Shown here one piece after another: positions 50,044-58,314 of a stretch of 64,000 nucleotides of DNA (the stretch's first letter is position 1; the number at the start of each line of letters is the position of its first letter). The notes beneath the pieces were generated by a model. It did no database searches and was not told the DNA's origin. It was given only the letters and a program-made list of their open reading frames with translations. The stretch lies in assembly GCF_003205615.1 (NCBI RefSeq), contig NZ_PYBV01000005.1, positions 179,452 through 243,451 of the forward strand, given 5' to 3'. The stretch is from Micromonospora arborensis (lineage in GTDB: Bacteria; Actinomycetota; Actinomycetes; Mycobacteriales; Micromonosporaceae). Both the position numbers and the translations under genes were made by a program.

Positions 50044-51048
50044 ATGGACGATCACGCTGGTGGCTCCCACCGCCACCTGTCCCGCAGATCCCTGATCGCC
50101 ACCGGGGCGCTCGCCGCCGGGGCGCTGGGCGCGTCCGCCCCGACGATCGGCGCCGCGTTCGGCGGCAGCCCCGCACAGGCCGCCGCTGGCGTCACGAAGA
50201 AGGTCACCATCTACGCCGAGCAGTTGCCCGACGGCCTGTTCGGCTACGGTCTGGCACCCGGCCAGGCGACCGTGCCGGGGCCGATCCTGGAGATCTACGA
50301 GGGTGACACCCTGGAGATCACCCTGGTCAACACCACCAGCCAGAGGCTGTCCATCCATCCGCACGGGGTGGACTACAGCACCGAGTCGGACGGCAGCCCG
50401 TTGAACGCCTCGTTCAACAATCCCGGTGAGACGCGGACGTACGTCTGGCGCACGCGGGAGATGTTCGCCGCGGCCGGCCGGCGGTTCATGCCGGGCAGCG
50501 CCGGCTACTGGCACTACCACGATCACGCCATGGGCACCGACCACGGCACCGCCGGGGTGGCGAAGGGCCTCTACGGGGCGCTGATCGTCCGGCGGCGCGG
50601 CGACATCCTGCCGGAGAAGCAGTTCACCGTCGTGTTCCACGACATGACGATCAACAACCGGATGGCGCCGGCGACCCCGATGTTCGAGGCGAACCTGGGC
50701 CAGCGCGTGGAGTGGATCGCCATCGGGCACGGCAACCTGTTCCACACCTTCCACCTGCACGCGCACCGCTGGGCGGACAACCGCACCGGAATGCTGGAGG
50801 GGCTGAGCGACCCGAGTCTGGTGATCGACAACAAGGACCTCAACCCGGGCAGCTCGTTCGGGTTCCAGGTGCTGGCCGGGGAGGGCGTCGGGCCCGGCGC
50901 GTGGATGTACCACTGCCACGTGCAGAACCACTCCGACGGCGGCATGTCGGGGATCTTCCTGGTGCGCAACGCCGACGGCAGCATGCCGCCGGGCGCCGAG
51001 GAGGCGATCCACCGGTTCCAGGGCCACACCCACACGCACGGAAGCTGA
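50044..51048 (+). CDS. Two-domain laccase-type multicopper oxidase, Tat-exported
   Basis: This 334-residue oxidase resembles the Streptomyces small laccases that work as trimers. The Tat signal SRRSLIATGALAAGALGASA (13-32) precedes the first cupredoxin domain with HPHG (105-108) and WHYHDH (156-161), and the second with HTFHLH (234-239) and HCHVQNHSDGGM (290-301), completing T1, T2 and T3 copper sites. ATG at 50044 has GGAG upstream. It is the first gene of a four-gene secreted operon; the next start is 23 bp after its stop. Confidence 0.94.
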   Translation: MDDHAGGSHRHLSRRSLIATGALAAGALGASAPTIGAAFGGSPAQAAAGVTKKVTIYAEQLPDGLFGYGLAPGQATVPGPILEIYEGDTLEITLVNTTSQRLSIHPHGVDYSTESDGSPLNASFNNPGETRTYVWRTREMFAAAGRRFMPGSAGYWHYHDHAMGTDHGTAGVAKGLYGALIVRRRGDILPEKQFTVVFHDMTINNRMAPATPMFEANLGQRVEWIAIGHGNLFHTFHLHAHRWADNRTGMLEGLSDPSLVIDNKDLNPGSSFGFQVLAGEGVGPGAWMYHCHVQNHSDGGMSGIFLVRNADGSMPPGAEEAIHRFQGHTHTHGS

Positions 51049-51071
51049 CCGAACCGAAAGTGGGGACGGGG

Positions 51072-54000
51072 ATGACCAGAAAATCACGACGAACCCTCGC
51101 CGCGATAGCGGCCTTCGCGGCGCTGATCCCGGCAACGACGGCAGCAGCCGCGCCGAGCACGGCAGCCGCACCACGAACGGCAGCCGCCGCGCAGCCGCAG
51201 AAGACCGCGGTCCTGGTGTTTCACGGGCCGGTGGCCGAGCAGCAGGACCCGGTTTCTCGCGCGGTGGACACCATCAAGCAGCTTGGTGCCGCTCATGACA
51301 TCGATGTCACAGCCACCACGGACCCGGCTGTCTTCACCACGGCCGGGCTGTCGGCGTACCGCAGCGTGGTCTTTCTCTCCGCGACGGGCGCCGCGCTCAA
51401 CCGCGACCAGGAGTCGGCGCTGCAGAGCTACATGAAGGCCGGCGGCGGTTTCGTCGGCATCGCCGACGCCGCCCGCGCCCAGGTCGATTCGGCCTGGTTC
51501 ACCGGCCTGATCGGCACCCGCCCGGCGGGCGCGATCCCGGTGGCCGAGCCGGTGGCCGCGGTGACCGCCAGCGGCGAGAACCCGCCGACCGAGTCCAAGG
51601 AGAAGCTGTCCGACGGCGACGCCAACACCAAGTGGCTGGTCCGCACCCCGACCGCGTGGGTGGCCTACCAACTGGCCGCGCCCAAGCGGATCACCGGGTA
51701 CGCGCTGACGTCGGCCAACGACTTCGTCGGGCGGGACCCGAAGGACTGGACCCTGCAGGGCTCCAGCGACGGCCAGAGCTGGTCCGATCTGGACCGGCGC
51801 ACCAACCAGACCTTCGCGGAGCGGTTCCAGACCCGCCGCTTCGACATCGCCACGCCGCAGGAGTTCACCCGCTACCGGCTGAACATCACCGCCAACAGCG
51901 GTGAGCCGCTGATCCAGCTCGCCGACCTGCGCCTGTTCACCGGCGCGGCCACCGCGCCGCCGCCGACCCCCGTGAACCGGGCGGTGGTCGACATCCTGGA
52001 CCGCAAACACCCGGCGACCGCGTCGCTGCCCCTGACGATCACCCGGTCCGACCGCTGGGACAACTGGGACCCGAACCCGATCGGCACGGTGCACACGCTC
52101 GCCCAGGTCGAGGAGCGGCACTACAACCCGGGGGCGGCCGCGAACGGCGCGTTCCACCCGGTGTCCTGGTGCCGGGACTACGACGGCGGCCGGTCGTTCT
52201 ACACCGGCATGGGCCACACCGAGGGCAGCTACGGCGAGGAGGCGTTCCGCGCGCACCTGACCGGCGCTCTCAACTGGACCACCGGCCGCGTTCGCGGCGA
52301 CTGCCAGGCCACGATCGCCGCGAACTACAAGGTGGAGCGGCTCACCGCGGCAAACCAGACCGGGCAGTTGGACCAGATCGGCGAGCCGCACGGCCTCACC
52401 ATCGCGCCGGACGGCACGGTCTTCTACGTCGGCAAGGCGGCCTGCCCGAGCGGCCCGATCGCCGACTGGAACGACCCGAACGTCGGCCTGGGCTGCGGCA
52501 CCATCCACTCCTGGGACCCGCGGACCAAGCAGGTCAAACTGCTCACCACCCTGGAGGTGATGGGCAACCGGGGCAGCGGCTCCGAACTGGTGAAGAACGA
52601 GGAGGGCCTGCTCGGCATCGTGCCCGACCCCGCGTTCGCCGAGAACGGGTGGCTCTACGTCTACTGGATGCCACACGAGTCGGTCGACCGGGTGCAGCGG
52701 GTCGGGCAACGCACCATCTCGCGGTTCACCTACGACCGCCAGGCGCAGACCATCGACCAGGCCACCCGCAAGGACCTGCTGCAGTTCCCGGTGCAGATCC
52801 ACAGCTGCTGCCACGCCGGTGGCGGCATGGCGTTCGACGCCAAGGGCAACCTCTACGTCGGCTCCGGCGACAACAACTCCTCCGAGGGGTCGCAGGGCTA
52901 CTCCGGCAACAACTGGACCCAGGAGTACCAGGGGATCTCGTTCCAGGACGCCCGCCGCACGTCGGGCAACACCAACGACCTCGCCGGAAAGATCATCCGG
53001 ATCCACCCGGAGGCGGACGGCACGTACACCATCCCGGAGGGCAACCTTTTCCCGCCGGGCACCGAGAAGACCCGGCCGGAGATCTACGTGATGGGCGTAC
53101 GCAACATCGCCCGCCTGCAGATCGACCCGGTGCACCAGTGGCTGACCGCCGGCTGGGTCGGCCCGGACGCCGCATCGCCCAGCCCCACCCTGGGTCCGGC
53201 CAAGTACGAGACCGCCACCATCATCACCTCGGCCGGCAACCAGGGCTGGCCGTACTGCATGGGCAACCGGCAGCCGTACCGGGATCGCAGCAGCACCGAC
53301 GCGACGGTGCTCACCGGTTGGTACGACTGCGACAACCTGAAGAACACCTCGCCTCGCAACACCGGCCTGGTGGACATCCCCGCGGCCCGGGACAACATGA
53401 TCTGGTATTCGCCGGACGGCGGCGGCCCGGTGTTCCCCAAGCGGACCGACGGCAGCGGCCTCCCGACGTACGTCGCGGCCGACGCCACCTACACGCAGCC
53501 GTACCTGCGCGGCGGCGGGCAGGCCATCATGTCCGGCCCGACGTACCACCGCGAACTCGTCGACACGAACAGTGGCGTGGCCTGGCCGGAGCACTGGGAC
53601 GGCAAGTGGTTCATCGGCGACCAGTCGAACGCCAACAACCGGGTGGCGGTCACCGTCGACCCGGCCGGAGTGCCGCAGGCCGCCCCACCGGTGTACGCCG
53701 AGTCGCTGCGGGCCATCATCCCCGGCGGCAACGGTGACACCCGGCTGCAGAGCTGGATGGACGCCAAGTTCGGCCCGGACGGCGCGCTCTACCTGCTCGA
53801 CTACGGCGGCGGGTTCTTCAGCCTGCACGACAACCAGAAGCTGATCCGGGTCACCTACACCGGTGGTGCTCCCACCCCGGCGCCGGCCGCGACCTCGGTC
53901 GCCGTGCAGAACAAGCCGTTGACCATCGCCTTCAACGGTTCCCGCTCCGGCGGCGTCAGCCACCGGTGGGAGTTCGGCGACGGCGCCACGTCGACCGAGG

Positions 54001-55016
54001 CGAACCCCCGGCACACGTACGCCAAGGTTGGCACCTACTCGGCGAAGCTGACCGTCACGTACGCCGACGGTGAGACCGCGACGGTGCAGAGCACGGTCAC
54101 GGTGGGCTGCGCGGTGCCGGACAGCCGGCAGAACGTGTGGCTCGGGGACACCGACACCGGGGTGCCCAGTCGTACGGTCGGGCAGGGCTGCACCATCAAC
54201 GACCTGATCGACGACGAGAGCACCTGGGCCGACCACAACGGATTCGTCCGGCACGTGAGCACGGTGACCCGTGCGTTGCAGGACGACGGCCTGCTCAATG
54301 CCCGCGAATCCGGCACGCTGACCCGCCTGGCCGCCGCGTCCGAGGTCGGCCGGGACGGGCACACCGGGTACGAGCCCCTCTACGACGGCACCCCGGAGTC
54401 GCTGCTCGGCTGGCAGCAGGCGCCGACGGGATCGTTCAGCATCCAGCCGGACGGGGCGCTGCGCTCCAGCGGTGGCATGGGCATGCTCTGGCACACCAAG
54501 GAGTTCGGTGACTTCTCGGTGAAGCTGCAGTTCAAGGACATCGCGCCAGGCACGAATCGGGCCAACACCGGCGTCTTCACCCGCTTCCCGGACCCGCGGA
54601 TCCCGCTGGAGCAGCGGCCCGAGGGCAGCTGCGGCACCGTCGGATCGGCCCGTACGTCGCAAGCCTGGGTGGCGATCTTCTGCGGACACGAGATCCAGAT
54701 CTACGACGGCGAGACCGGTGAGCCGCAGAAGACCGGTTCGGTCTACAACTTCGACTCCGTGCCGCTCGCCCAGGCCGGTGTGACTCCGAAGAACCAGTGG
54801 AACGACTACGAGATCCGGGTCGTCGGGCAGCACTACACGATGATCCGCAACGGTGTGGTGATCAACGAGTTCGACAACACGCCGGGCAAGCAGTCGTCCC
54901 GGGCCGGCGACCCGCCGACCGACCTGCGGCAGTTCCTCCGCGGCTTCATCGGCCTGCAGAACCACGGTGACAACGACCTGACCGAGTTCCGCAACGTCCG
55001 CGTGCGGGAACTCTAG
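51072..55016 (+). CDS. Secreted giant: ThuA / discoidin / PQQ dehydrogenase / PKD / DUF1080
   Basis: This 1314-residue secreted protein begins with a signal peptide (about 1-27), then a ThuA-like domain (TAVLVFHGPVAE..) interrupted after residue 155 by an F5/8 type C module (SKEKLSDGDANTKWLV.., residues about 160-295) and continuing (VVDILDRKHPATASL.., WCRDYDGGRSFYTGMGH). A PQQ-dependent sugar dehydrogenase-like propeller follows (about 400-930: GEPHGLTIAPDG, GLLGIVPDP, CHAGGGMAFDAKGNLYVGSGDN), then PKD (WEFGDGATSTEANPRHTY), the 81-residue GCTINDLID module (1013-1093) and a DUF1080 domain (about 1100-1314) typical of 3-keto-disaccharide hydrolases. It probably acts on extracellular carbohydrate; the substrate is unknown. 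ATG at 51072. Confidence 0.9.
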   Translation: MTRKSRRTLAAIAAFAALIPATTAAAAPSTAAAPRTAAAAQPQKTAVLVFHGPVAEQQDPVSRAVDTIKQLGAAHDIDVTATTDPAVFTTAGLSAYRSVVFLSATGAALNRDQESALQSYMKAGGGFVGIADAARAQVDSAWFTGLIGTRPAGAIPVAEPVAAVTASGENPPTESKEKLSDGDANTKWLVRTPTAWVAYQLAAPKRITGYALTSANDFVGRDPKDWTLQGSSDGQSWSDLDRRTNQTFAERFQTRRFDIATPQEFTRYRLNITANSGEPLIQLADLRLFTGAATAPPPTPVNRAVVDILDRKHPATASLPLTITRSDRWDNWDPNPIGTVHTLAQVEERHYNPGAAANGAFHPVSWCRDYDGGRSFYTGMGHTEGSYGEEAFRAHLTGALNWTTGRVRGDCQATIAANYKVERLTAANQTGQLDQIGEPHGLTIAPDGTVFYVGKAACPSGPIADWNDPNVGLGCGTIHSWDPRTKQVKLLTTLEVMGNRGSGSELVKNEEGLLGIVPDPAFAENGWLYVYWMPHESVDRVQRVGQRTISRFTYDRQAQTIDQATRKDLLQFPVQIHSCCHAGGGMAFDAKGNLYVGSGDNNSSEGSQGYSGNNWTQEYQGISFQDARRTSGNTNDLAGKIIRIHPEADGTYTIPEGNLFPPGTEKTRPEIYVMGVRNIARLQIDPVHQWLTAGWVGPDAASPSPTLGPAKYETATIITSAGNQGWPYCMGNRQPYRDRSSTDATVLTGWYDCDNLKNTSPRNTGLVDIPAARDNMIWYSPDGGGPVFPKRTDGSGLPTYVAADATYTQPYLRGGGQAIMSGPTYHRELVDTNSGVAWPEHWDGKWFIGDQSNANNRVAVTVDPAGVPQAAPPVYAESLRAIIPGGNGDTRLQSWMDAKFGPDGALYLLDYGGGFFSLHDNQKLIRVTYTGGAPTPAPAATSVAVQNKPLTIAFNGSRSGGVSHRWEFGDGATSTEANPRHTYAKVGTYSAKLTVTYADGETATVQSTVTVGCAVPDSRQNVWLGDTDTGVPSRTVGQGCTINDLIDDESTWADHNGFVRHVSTVTRALQDDGLLNARESGTLTRLAAASEVGRDGHTGYEPLYDGTPESLLGWQQAPTGSFSIQPDGALRSSGGMGMLWHTKEFGDFSVKLQFKDIAPGTNRANTGVFTRFPDPRIPLEQRPEGSCGTVGSARTSQAWVAIFCGHEIQIYDGETGEPQKTGSVYNFDSVPLAQAGVTPKNQWNDYEIRVVGQHYTMIRNGVVINEFDNTPGKQSSRAGDPPTDLRQFLRGFIGLQNHGDNDLTEFRNVRVREL

Positions 55017-55024
55017 GAGTGACG

Positions 55025-56554
55025 ATGACCCGACGACTGACGGCCGCGCTGGCGGCGCTCCTGCTCACGGTGATCCCGTGGACCGCGACGCCCGCCTCCG
55101 CCGCCCCGCGCGTCGCCGCCGACCAGGTGTTGACCTGGACCGCCGACGACAACATCACCCGCTACAAGTCCGCACCCACCTCGGCGGTGGCCGGTGCCAC
55201 CACCATCATCTGGGAGAACAGCGCGGCCACCGGCAACACCACCGGGATGCCGCACACGCTGACCTTCGACACCTCCACCGAGGGTTACAACCACGACGTC
55301 ACGCTCAACATCCTGGCCAGCCCGTTCGACGCCAACGACGGCCGCCACCAGGCGACCGTCAACCTGACCCCGGGCCGGTACCGCTACTTCTGCTCGATCC
55401 CCGGCCACAGTCAGATGGTCGGCGAGCTGGTGGTCACCGAGGGCGGAGGTGGCGGCGACACCACACCGCCGACGGTCGCCGGCACCGTGGCCGGTGAGCG
55501 CGACCAGGACGGCAACTACCTCGGTGCGGCCACGGTGACCGTCACGGCCACCGACGCCGACTCCGGCGTGGACACCGTCGAGTACCAGGTCGACGACACC
55601 AGCTTCCAGCCGTACACCCAGCCGGTGCAGGTGACCGCGATCGGCGACCACTCGGTGCAGTTCCGGGCCACCGACCAGGCCGGTAACACCAGTGCCGTCG
55701 GCTCGGTGTCGTTCCGGATCGTCGAGCCGGGGGAGGAGGACACCACCGCTCCGGTGGCGACGGCGACCCTGGCCGGCGACCGTGACGGCGACGGCAACTA
55801 CATCGGTACGGTCACCGCCACGCTGGCCGCCACCGATACCGGGTCCGGCGTCGCCACCATCGAGTACTCGTTGGACGGGGCCGCCTTCACCGCGTACACG
55901 AACCCGATCGTCGTGACCGCGGCCGGGATGCACATGCTGCACTACCGGGCGACCGACGTCGCCGGGAACACGTCGGCCGAGCAGATGGAACACTTCACCG
56001 TCGTTCCGCCGGCGGCCGAGGACACCACGCCACCCGCGGTGTCCGCGACGGTCACCGGCGAGCGCGACAGCGCCGGCGCGTACGTCGGCGGTGCGACCGT
56101 CACCGTCACCGCGACCGACGACGACTCGGGTGTGGCGTCGGTCGAGTACGCGGTCGACGGTGGTGGCTGGACCGCGTACGCCGGCCCGGTCTCCGTCCGG
56201 ACCGTCGGCGCGCACACCCTGCGGTACCGGGCGACCGACACCGCGGGCAACGCCTCCACCGAGCAGTCGACGACGTTCACGGTGGTGGCCGACGGCACCG
56301 ACGGCTGCGCCGACTCGGACACCCGGGCCACGGTGATCATCGACGGCGACGACACCGGGGTGGCCAACGTCGACACCGGCGACGGCTGCACCATCAACGA
56401 TCTGATCGACGAACACGCCGACTACCCCGGCCACGCCGATTTCGTCCGGCACGTCGAGGCGGTCACCGCCGCGCTCGTGACCGACGGCACGCTCAACCGG
56501 CGGCAGCAGGGCACCATCGTCCGGGCCGCGGCCCGATCGGACGTCGGCGCATGA
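55025..56554 (+). CDS. Secreted blue-copper protein with three Ig-like repeats
   Basis: This 509-residue secreted protein has a signal peptide (1-27), a plastocyanin-like cupredoxin with type-1 ligands His77 (MPHTLTF), Cys123, His128 and Met131 (YFCSIPGHSQM), three beta-sandwich repeats of about 93 residues each beginning DTTPP or DTTAP and containing DSGV..VEY and HxLxYRATDxAGNxS, and the C-terminal GCTINDLID module shared with the previous protein. It could carry electrons between the dehydrogenase and the laccase; this is inference. ATG 55025 has AGGAG five bases upstream, while GTG 55019 overlaps that site. Confidence 0.9.
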   Translation: MTRRLTAALAALLLTVIPWTATPASAAPRVAADQVLTWTADDNITRYKSAPTSAVAGATTIIWENSAATGNTTGMPHTLTFDTSTEGYNHDVTLNILASPFDANDGRHQATVNLTPGRYRYFCSIPGHSQMVGELVVTEGGGGGDTTPPTVAGTVAGERDQDGNYLGAATVTVTATDADSGVDTVEYQVDDTSFQPYTQPVQVTAIGDHSVQFRATDQAGNTSAVGSVSFRIVEPGEEDTTAPVATATLAGDRDGDGNYIGTVTATLAATDTGSGVATIEYSLDGAAFTAYTNPIVVTAAGMHMLHYRATDVAGNTSAEQMEHFTVVPPAAEDTTPPAVSATVTGERDSAGAYVGGATVTVTATDDDSGVASVEYAVDGGGWTAYAGPVSVRTVGAHTLRYRATDTAGNASTEQSTTFTVVADGTDGCADSDTRATVIIDGDDTGVANVDTGDGCTINDLIDEHADYPGHADFVRHVEAVTAALVTDGTLNRRQQGTIVRAAARSDVGA

Positions 56555-56586
56555 GTCCTCGAATCTCATCGACAGGGAGTACAACG

Positions 56587-57564
56587 ATGCCCGGACGTAC
56601 CGTCGTCAAGCTCGCCACCGTGAGCGCCTTCGTCGCCGCCTCGGTGTTGGCGGTGGCGCCCACCGCACACGCCGACCTGGTCACCCACTGCATCGGCACC
56701 GGCGGTGCCGTGACCGTGCCCAACGACCTGCTGGTGCCGGCCGGCCAGTCGTGCGCGCTGACCGGCACCACGATCACCGGCAACGTCACCGTCGCGGCCG
56801 GCGGCAACCTGGTGGTTGCCGGTGGCCGGGTCAGCGGCGAGATCCGCGTTGCCGCGGACGGCTACCTCGACGCCACCGAGACGACCATCGACGGCCAGGT
56901 GGTGCTGGCCGCCGGCGGCTACGGAGTCTTCCTCAAAGACGCCCGCAGCGGCAACGTGACCGTGCGGCCGAAGGGCTCCGCGACCATCGACAGCTTCCTG
57001 TTCGTGGAGGAGTCGACGATCGTCGGGACGGTCAACGCGGGCGCCGGTGAGGTGCGGCTCGACCGTGGCACCCAGGTGGAACGCAACGTCAGCAGCACCG
57101 GCACCTACTACACCGACGTGCACGACTCCTTCGTCGACGGCACGCTGTCGGTGCTGAACAGCGCCACCGGCAGTGTGGTGTGCGGCAGCGCGGTCCGTGG
57201 CCAGGCCACCTTCGCCGGCAACCTGGGTGGTGTGCAGCTCGGCCCGAACGGCACCCTCGACAGTTGCGCCTCCGGCGGCTACTGGGGCCGGGACGTCAGC
57301 ATCACCAGCACCACCGGTGGCGTCAGCGTCGACGACAACATCATCGACGGCCAGCTGACCGTGACGTCCAACGACCCGGCCGCCCAGGTGGCCGCGAACA
57401 ACCGGATCCGCGGCGGCGTGACCGGTGACCAGGCCGCCGCGACCACCAACCGGGCCGCCCGGACGGCCGCCCCGGACCGGGAGGACGCCGGCGACCAGCG
57501 GGCCGAGACCCGTCGTACCTCGGCGGTGCAGGAGGCCACCGCGGCCGGCGACGCCCGGCTCTAG
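56587..57564 (+). CDS. Secreted beta-helix-like repeat protein
   Basis: This 325-residue protein has a signal peptide (MPGRTVVKLATVSAFVAASVLAV.., cleaved near AHADL) and then repeats of roughly 20 residues built on a G-x-V-x-V pattern (TITGNVTVAAGGNLVVAGG, VSGEIRVAADGYLDATET, TIDGQVVLAAGGYGVFLKD), suggesting a right-handed parallel beta-helix or bactofilin-like stack. The tail is rich in charged residues and Ala. ATG at 56587 has GGGAG seven bases ahead; the ATG at 56551 overlaps the preceding stop but lacks a ribosome site. Function unknown; a structural or surface-binding role is plausible. Confidence 0.8.
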   Translation: MPGRTVVKLATVSAFVAASVLAVAPTAHADLVTHCIGTGGAVTVPNDLLVPAGQSCALTGTTITGNVTVAAGGNLVVAGGRVSGEIRVAADGYLDATETTIDGQVVLAAGGYGVFLKDARSGNVTVRPKGSATIDSFLFVEESTIVGTVNAGAGEVRLDRGTQVERNVSSTGTYYTDVHDSFVDGTLSVLNSATGSVVCGSAVRGQATFAGNLGGVQLGPNGTLDSCASGGYWGRDVSITSTTGGVSVDDNIIDGQLTVTSNDPAAQVAANNRIRGGVTGDQAAATTNRAARTAAPDREDAGDQRAETRRTSAVQEATAAGDARL

Positions 57565-57575
57565 CTGCTCGACGC

Positions 57576-57623
57576 GACGGCGGCCGGCCACCCCGGATCG
57601 AGGGGTGACCGGCCGCCGCCGTC
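57576..57623 (+). terminator. Terminator after secreted redox operon
   Basis: A long GC-rich imperfect hairpin starts 11 bp after the last operon gene: GACGGCGGCCGG.. (from 57576) pairs with ..CCGGCCGCCGCCGTC (to 57623), with a few unpaired bases in the right arm and a seven-base loop. Confidence 0.7.
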
Positions 57624-57644: not shown

Positions 57645-57681
57645 TTGCGTGTCGGTGCCGGCGTCGGCAGAATCCCCGGTC
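57645..57681 (+). promoter_or_regulatory. Leaderless promoter candidate of the 57682 gene
   Basis: TTGCGT (57645-57650) and CAGAAT (57668-57673) are 17 bases apart and lie 8 bases ahead of the GTG at 57682. With no Shine-Dalgarno nearby, this suggests a leaderless mRNA and fixes the start of the unknown gene. Confidence 0.5.
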
Positions 57682-58314
57682 GTGACGGAAGATCACGAGC
57701 CGGAGCACGGCGAAGACGAGACGGTCATCGAGAACTACGTCGCCGAGTGCCCCATCGACGCGGAGCTGGCCGATCAGCTGATCGGTCTGGCCGACCTGCC
57801 GTGGAACGATCCGGACGCCACCAGCCGGGCGATGCGCGCTCTCGGCTGGACCGCCGACGCGGCGCCGACCGACGAAACTCGCTTCGTCACCGTGGCCGGT
57901 CACGCCATCTACGGCGACTACTGCCTCTACATGCCCTTCGTCCACTACTACACGGTGGGTGGAGAGCTGTGGCCGGATGACTTCTGGGGCTCGCAGCCCG
58001 GCTGGTCGAGCCAGCCGGACGCCGGTCGCCAGGACTTCGAGGCGTGCGTCGACGCCGCGATCGAACGGCTCACCGAACGGCTCGGCCCCCCGGAGTGGGA
58101 CGTCCGGACCGAAGGCAGGAACATCTCCATCGGCGGCTACTCCTGGCGGTACGCCGCCTGGCGGCGGGCCAGCAACATCCTTGTCGTCGGCCCGACCCTG
58201 GACGGCTACTCCTATTCCCAGGACGAGGAGGCCGTCGTCTACATCGGTCAGTTCGCCGAGGACCGGCCGTTCCCGGACGCCGCCGACTTCCGCAGCCTCA
58301 TGCGTACGGGTTGA
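57682..58314 (+). CDS. Uncharacterised cytoplasmic protein
   Basis: I do not recognise this 210-residue acidic protein. Notable segments are ENYVAECPIDAELADQLIG, DATSRAMRALGWTAD, FVTVAGHAIYGDYCLYMPFV and RNISIGGYSWRYAAWRRASN. There is no signal peptide or membrane helix. GTG at 57682 is preferred because of the leaderless promoter; GTG 57649 lies within the -35 box. The gene stands alone between two terminators. Confidence 0.65.
   Translation: MTEDHEPEHGEDETVIENYVAECPIDAELADQLIGLADLPWNDPDATSRAMRALGWTADAAPTDETRFVTVAGHAIYGDYCLYMPFVHYYTVGGELWPDDFWGSQPGWSSQPDAGRQDFEACVDAAIERLTERLGPPEWDVRTEGRNISIGGYSWRYAAWRRASNILVVGPTLDGYSYSQDEEAVVYIGQFAEDRPFPDAADFRSLMRTG

Follow-up and report, generated by a model that had tools for sequence, protein, structure and literature searches.

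A conserved set of laccase, cupredoxin and ThuA/GSDH/DUF1080 genes in Actinomycetes, and its possible part in oxygen-linked glycoside oxidation outside the cell

In this study, we have described four closely spaced genes on one strand of a 64,000-nucleotide stretch (the window) of Micromonospora arborensis contig NZ_PYBV01000005.1, which encode, in this order, a two-domain laccase, a 1314-residue secreted protein with ThuA, discoidin, GSDH-type propeller, PKD and DUF1080 domains (hereafter the big protein), a blue-copper cupredoxin protein and a beta-helix-like protein. The first three genes form a tight and strongly conserved unit, and the fourth is lineage-specific. We favour, with a probability of about 0.5, a model in which a secreted glycoside oxidiser would pass electrons to the cupredoxin, the cupredoxin to the laccase and the laccase to oxygen, the three acting as one extracellular, copper-dependent unit. 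The first-pass annotation, made from the letters and a list of open reading frames (ORFs), had delimited the four genes, with gaps of 23, 8 and 32 bp, and named most of their domains. Both readings are borne out, as Pfam matches Cu-oxidase_3 and Cu-oxidase_2 in the laccase, all five domain types in the big protein, and a plastocyanin-type Copper-bind domain followed by three OmpL47-type repeats (its Ig-like repeats) in the cupredoxin protein. Window coordinates are used throughout and are collected in Table 1.

The case for a unit comes from two sets of genomes, 101 of the family and 296 of the class (114 genera). The big-gene search scored six candidates per genome in the family set and two in the class set, where the thresholds also differ per gene (laccase 1e-40, cupredoxin 1e-15, big gene 1e-130). 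Full-length-type orthologs of the big protein were found in 38 of the 101 family genomes among the matches listed, a count that takes in a 69% complete assembly with pieces on two contigs (G005) and a gene cut by its contig (G089). The cupredoxin domain is present in 37 of the 101, all within these 38. Those 37 genomes also have the laccase, which, with one weak 35% match elsewhere, is found in 38; all three genes occur together in 37. In the class set, laccase, cupredoxin and big gene are found in 42, 41 and 41 genomes, with all three in 40, two of the three in 2 and none in 254, and each of them is carried by the same nine of the 114 genera. The big gene is missing from G116, where the cupredoxin sits at the end of a contig, while the cupredoxin of G164 fell under the threshold and was recovered by tblastn at 42%. 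The hypergeometric probabilities for co-occurrence run from 3e-25 to 1e-49, uncorrected for kinship and with genomes of one genus not independent of each other; chance clustering was rejected on these counts. Co-conservation across Actinobacteria, which the first-pass annotation had put forward as the check on all four genes, therefore holds for laccase, cupredoxin and ThuA/GSDH gene, found as a unit in Actinomycetes, but not for the beta-helix-like gene, which mostly keeps apart from them. The latter was rejected as a core member, as it accompanies the others in 22 of 80 named loci (two of them on the other strand, at 44-46%) and, among family loci, is restricted to L040-L051.

Physical linkage is equally close. 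Of the 38 family orthologs, 36 are flanked by both partners (in the window and at 35 other loci); as to the remaining two, all three kinds of gene are present at a second locus of G008 (L077), in which the discoidin insert of the ThuA domain is missing, and the piece in G005 ends on a 4.6-kb contig. Among the named loci, both partners are present in 74 of 80, and four of the other six are cut by a contig end (L107, L114, L128, L145). The core genes of the 74 loci are found in five arrangements. Most loci (48) have laccase-big-cupredoxin on one strand, with the beta-helix-like gene next in 20 of them and a distant copy of it ahead, on the opposite strand, in 2. The laccase diverges from a big-cupredoxin pair in 12 loci and the cupredoxin from a laccase-big pair in 4. 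The order is cupredoxin-laccase-big in 8, some of which include an isomerase gene, and big-cupredoxin-isomerase-laccase in 2. The isomerase gene encodes a xylose-isomerase-like TIM-barrel protein and belongs to the cluster in some lineages (L106, L112-L115, L134, L142, L148, L060, L077); in L060 and L077 its product shows, by eye, a twin-arginine-like N-terminus. The big gene of G272 and the laccase gene of G092 each contain one in-frame TGA and are possibly pseudogenes or sequencing errors.

The set also appears to have survived a change of laccase. A tree was built from 58 of the 74 loci with both partners, spanning ten families, and in it the laccases of group B form a separate clade. As propellers of groups A and B are 77% identical and their laccases 46%, it appears that the laccase was replaced, with the enzyme retained and the set still together; a faster-evolving laccase in group B would be the alternative to such an exchange. 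Comparing the three genes by their identity matrices helped only in part (r 0.32 to 0.50 overall and, with group B left out, 0.41 to 0.60). Group B and SLAC-type Streptomyces have a cupredoxin-DUF1080 fusion. The set has been retained through rearrangement and through the apparent laccase exchange.

The two copper proteins are well defined. The laccase, called Tat-exported in the first-pass annotation and with a twin-arginine motif (SRRSL) recognized by eye in its N-terminus, aligns as two cupredoxin domains with small laccases over nearly its whole length, best with PDB entry 3t9w (442 bits, residues 45-320) and also with 3cg8 (373 bits, residues 11-320), as a type-B two-domain laccase does. 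It has the eight histidines of the trinuclear cluster and, in its C-terminal domain, the type-1 copper ligands, and the 12 presumed copper ligands (His, Cys and Met positions) are invariant in 78 of 78 sequences. The roles of these positions we take from SLAC structures; family and ligand positions are common to the window laccase, SLAC of S. coelicolor and other type-B two-domain laccases. In the case of the cupredoxin, the match to PF00127 (23.5 bits, cut-off 21.2) is that of a plastocyanin/azurin-type domain, and the type-1 ligands His77, Cys123, His128 and Met131 are invariant in 74 of 74 sequences. A module of about 82 residues with two cysteines, overlooked in the first reading, is found in both the big and the cupredoxin protein and in relatives of both, its cysteine pair being nearly or fully invariant. 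Its predicted fold is of high confidence (predicted local distance difference test, pLDDT, 94.6), and nothing convincing was retrieved for it among PDB folds (best Foldseek E 1.5, best VIA Z 4.4) or in Pfam (no match above cut-off for the first member, best E 0.0022 among 76 members). It is possibly a docking or surface-binding domain.

The same set is also found around a Streptomyces laccase very similar to SLAC. In S. hyderabadensis (L158), a laccase matching 3CG8 over its full length (747 bits) is divergent from a ThuA/GSDH gene, which is followed by a cupredoxin-DUF1080 gene; 3CG8 we take to be SLAC, the small laccase of Streptomyces coelicolor. A plasmid of S. fungicidicus has the same gene order, annotated there as 'family 16 glycoside hydrolase' (the cupredoxin-DUF1080 protein), 'ThuA domain-containing protein', 'multicopper oxidase' and a LacI regulator. 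A viral or plasmid home for the set was considered and is poorly supported, as no relative of the enzyme was confirmed in viral contigs and the laccase was found in 2 plasmid records, one of them with the full cluster. SLAC is SCO6712 (PMC3918160), and judging by gene numbering SCO6710, two places away, is likely to be the cupredoxin-DUF1080 gene. The text available from PMC6414726 describes SCO6710 as a glycosyl hydrolase that the copper regulator CsoR supposedly represses, and the level of SCO6710 was halved in cultures grown from copper-loaded spores, which fits poorly with simple derepression by copper. SLAC is treated as an isolated phenol oxidase in the available part of PMC3918160; the gene context described here adds cupredoxin and sugar-enzyme partners.

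The sugar enzyme itself is a mosaic, and its central domain deserves closer attention. The AlphaFold2 model of the propeller (pLDDT 85.6) finds sGDH among its best Foldseek matches (E 3e-17) and aligns with 2ism, 3das and 1c9u with VIA Z scores of 33.9, 31.2 and 27.5, as expected of a GSDH-type six-bladed propeller; Hedgehog-interacting protein (HHIP) is also among the structural matches. With sGDH (1C9U), Adh (3DAS) and Asd (2G8S), of CAZy family AA12, the propeller has in common the fold, the catalytic His and Asp, the Arg-Asn pair and the Gly-Pro of the calcium site. All 63 of 63 sequences share the residues aligned with sGDH His144, Asp163, Arg228, Asn229, Gly247 and Pro248. We take His144, Asp163, Arg228 and Asn229 to be catalytic in sGDH, Gly247-Pro248 to belong to the calcium site, and Arg406 and Arg408 to bind the carboxylates of pyrroloquinoline quinone (PQQ). 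Unlike sGDH and the aldose sugar dehydrogenases, the window propeller lacks this R-x-R, carries a pair of adjacent cysteines just before the catalytic His, and shares one chain with ThuA, discoidin, PKD and DUF1080 domains. The sequence Cys, Cys, His (Cys579, Cys580, His581) is found in 63 of 63 sequences. It also occurs in five of six ThuA/GSDH-like paralogs of the same genome, the sixth (L168) and three canonical GSDH proteins being without it. Since the other ten of the 12 cysteines of the big protein fall into five plausible pairs, a vicinal disulfide at Cys579-Cys580 is likely.

The first-pass annotation had placed the cluster in a carbohydrate setting, which agrees with the DUF1080 domain, with the CBM6 domains in two paralogs of the same genome (one also with GH43_C2 and FIMAH, the other with discoidin domains) and with the LacI regulator. 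The DUF1080 domain exceeds the PF06439 cut-off, its nearest PDB chain being 3imm (E 1.5e-8), and is thereby a predicted 3-ketoglycoside hydrolase. As far as the available text of PMC9007349 goes, 3-ketoglycoside hydrolysis is known or proposed for DUF1080 proteins, the domain is also named in an endo-xanthanase/lichenase, and BT2157 and Caulobacter CCNA_01705 with LacABC are cases of DUF1080 working with an extracytoplasmic sugar dehydrogenase, as proposed here. The Caulobacter dehydrogenase LacABC is membrane-bound, whereas in the window DUF1080 is joined in one chain to the dehydrogenase-like propeller, and the neighbouring genes encode copper proteins. ThuA/GSDH proteins of other phyla may have cytochrome c in place of such partners. 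Together with DUF1080 and the CBM6 paralogs, the genes that adjoin a two-laccase locus of another genus (L182), coding for a GH3 hydrolase, a ROK regulator and a solute-binding protein, point to an extracellular carbohydrate. Six further ThuA/GSDH-like places were seen in the M. arborensis genome (L002-L007, L078, L079); no laccase or cupredoxin domain lies near L078 or L079, the two paralogs read with their flanks.

All together, these data lead us to the following model. The three genes would form one extracellular, copper-dependent, oxygen-linked unit, in which the ThuA/GSDH protein would bind carbohydrate and its propeller would oxidise a glycosidic sugar, probably to a 3-keto-glycoside, to be cleaved by the DUF1080 domain of the same chain. 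The secreted cupredoxin would take up the electrons at its type-1 copper and pass them on to the two-domain laccase, where oxygen would be reduced to water. Other lineages have a DUF1080 domain fused to the cupredoxin, and some add a secreted sugar-isomerase-like protein to the cluster. Gene content and co-occurrence are observed, and the direction of electron flow, the propeller cofactor, the oxidation at C3 and the substrate are what we infer.

Several points weigh against this model. One concerns the cofactor: in the alignment, Arg and Lys are absent in all 63 sequences from both positions that match sGDH Arg406 and Arg408. The first of these holds Ser (46), Asn (6), Gln (5), Asp (2), Ala (2), Thr (1) or Gly (1), the second Met in all 63, and an Arg or Lys one position earlier (893) is found in 5 of 63. 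R-x-R is kept in five PQQ-type GSDH structures (3das, 3a9g, 2ism, 2g8s and sGDH), which were aligned with a canonical GSDH of the M. arborensis genome, the sGDH piece scoring only -0.4 bits; three canonical GSDH proteins of that genome keep it too, and a fourth GSDH (L165) is without it. The first-pass annotation had read the genes as a copper/PQQ redox operon, to be refuted by a lack of PQQ/calcium-binding residues in the propeller; the His/Asp, Arg/Asn and calcium-site Gly-Pro positions uphold this view, but the positions of the two PQQ-binding arginines do not. Because the alignment lacks R-x-R, we have not filed the propeller as a PQQ enzyme. In addition, PqqE did not pass the cut-off in the M. 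arborensis genome, in a search without a positive control (no control genome passed either), and PqqC was found in 2 of the 47 hosts searched out of 78 genomes with the big gene. 'PQQ' is therefore unproven for this protein, and 'PQQ-dehydrogenase-like' is the better wording. With the arginines absent, the cysteine pair in place, PqqE under the cut-off and PqqC scarce, the cofactor may be imported PQQ bound in a different manner or another one. Linkage is not universal either. One named locus is without the cupredoxin (L104) and one big gene is without either partner over 4.9 kb before and 10 kb after it (L132), with no contig end to account for either; a plasmid of Streptomyces sp. NBC_00316 (L189) has the laccase with neither partner within about 9 kb; and genus g64 (G187, G240) has a second, laccase-laccase-cupredoxin locus (L182, L183) with no ThuA/GSDH gene in about 20 kb. 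Mutation of the laccase lowers lignin solubilisation by S. ipomoeae (PMC5675413, text seen in part), and redox activity of the three proteins is so far a prediction. The L189 laccase sits near a LacI regulator and sugar ATP-binding cassette (ABC) genes, and in G116, too, two laccases and a cupredoxin lie together at a second locus (L185).

The lignin phenotype is central to the best of the rival explanations, to which we give a rather low probability: a parallel attack on plant material, the laccase acting on phenolic lignin, directly or through the cupredoxin, and the big protein on the attached carbohydrate, so that a common substrate, not electron transfer between the proteins, would account for their co-inheritance. 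According to the accessible text of PMC5675413, the laccase-negative S. ipomoeae solubilises less straw lignin and shows poorer growth and sporulation on straw, with no significant difference of growth in liquid medium, and Amycolatopsis sLac modifies lignin (PMC8559727, accessible part). However, a plain phenol oxidase would have no need of the secreted type-1 copper protein that is present in 41 of 42 laccase genomes, and the available text of PMC13151041 terms the roles of two-domain oxidases poorly understood. It is unlikely that the propeller is non-redox, binding or hydrolysing sugar while cupredoxin and laccase form a separate oxidising module with another donor. The missing basic residues, the rarity of PqqC among hosts, the loci of two laccases and a cupredoxin without the enzyme and the structural match to HHIP, a protein of the same fold that, to our knowledge, is not known as a dehydrogenase, all speak for such a role; the full conservation of the His, Asp, Arg, Asn and calcium-site Gly-Pro residues and the presence of the enzyme in 41 of 42 laccase genomes speak against it. 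A copper handling or defence cluster, in which CsoR would control a cupredoxin and a laccase that either bind copper or oxidise toxic phenols or Cu(I), the sugar enzyme being a bystander, is very unlikely: SCO6710 is linked to CsoR in the accessible text of PMC6414726, but no copper transporter or chaperone was seen among 16 annotated neighbours or nine scanned proteins, and the enzyme is as well conserved as the copper proteins. Finally, vertical co-inheritance or chance clustering alone, for which the kinship of same-genus genomes leaves some room, is highly improbable given a set that is intact in five core arrangements, that apparently exchanged its laccase and whose members share the same nine genera.

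Upstream of the laccase lies an amino-acid-type ABC transporter, whose ATPase is nearest to GlnQ, under the cut-off of that model, and downstream of the four genes an ORF of 221 residues (57649-58314) without Pfam or NCBIfam match. The terminator that the first-pass annotation had seen behind the fourth gene stands in part: a very stable GC hairpin is found just 3' of 57564 (-53 kcal/mol for the whole stretch, z = -3.6), but it has no U-run and was not flagged by the consensus scan. The big protein has 91-92% best-segment identity in M. trifolii, M. alfalfae and M. noduli, which are among the nearest named relatives.

Table 1. Positions in the window of the genes, domains and other features of the laccase cluster
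Feature	Position	Strand	Basis
Two-domain (SLAC-type) laccase, 334 aa	50044..51048	+	Pfam Cu-oxidase_2/3; small-laccase PDB matches
Secreted ThuA/discoidin/GSDH propeller/PKD/module/DUF1080 protein, 1314 aa	51072..55016	+	Pfam; orthologs in family and class genomes
ThuA domain (approximate bounds), with discoidin (F5/8C) insert at about 51561-51893	51210..52280	+	Pfam
GSDH-type propeller, residues 415-935	52314..53876	+	AlphaFold2 model; Foldseek; VIA
HSCCH motif: vicinal Cys579-Cys580 adjoining His581 (sGDH His144 in alignment)	52800..52814	+	Alignment
PKD domain of big protein	53877..54104	+	Pfam
Common module of about 82 aa, big-protein copy (residues 1013-1095)	54108..54356	+	Sequence comparison of both proteins
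DUF1080 (PF06439, now 3-keto-disaccharide hydrolase)	54369..55007	+	111.8 bits, cut-off 26.8
Blue-copper cupredoxin with three OmpL47-type Ig repeats and common module, 509 aa	55025..56554	+	Pfam/NCBIfam; ligand conservation
Common module of about 82 aa, C-terminal copy in cupredoxin protein (residues 428-509)	56306..56551	+	Comparison; predicted fold
Lineage-specific accessory gene for a secreted protein of no known family, beta-helix-like by eye, 325 aa	56587..57564	+	No Pfam/NCBIfam match
Inner GC-rich hairpin, putative transcript end	57578..57618	+	Folding energy; no T-run

Small two-domain laccases are widely studied and much used enzymes, and according to a 2026 paper (PMC13151041, available text) the physiological roles of two-domain oxidases are still poorly understood. 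In the open-access literature, with subscription papers mostly outside the scope of the search, we found no publication joining the laccase, cupredoxin and ThuA/GSDH genes. A bolder extension of our model, which we put forward only tentatively and consider rather doubtful, is that SLAC-type laccases are the natural terminal oxidases of a secreted copper respiratory chain, in which a propeller of a new subfamily, with a vicinal-disulfide site and a cofactor that would be either other than PQQ or bound unlike classical PQQ, would make 3-keto-glycosides in a polysaccharide and a dedicated cupredoxin would serve as carrier. Across genomes, one cupredoxin and one sugar enzyme accompany these laccases almost without exception, which provides a testable candidate for their electron donor and role. 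If the favoured model is true, oxygen would drive the extracellular oxidation and cleavage of glycosides, which might be put to use in biomass conversion and in biosensors.

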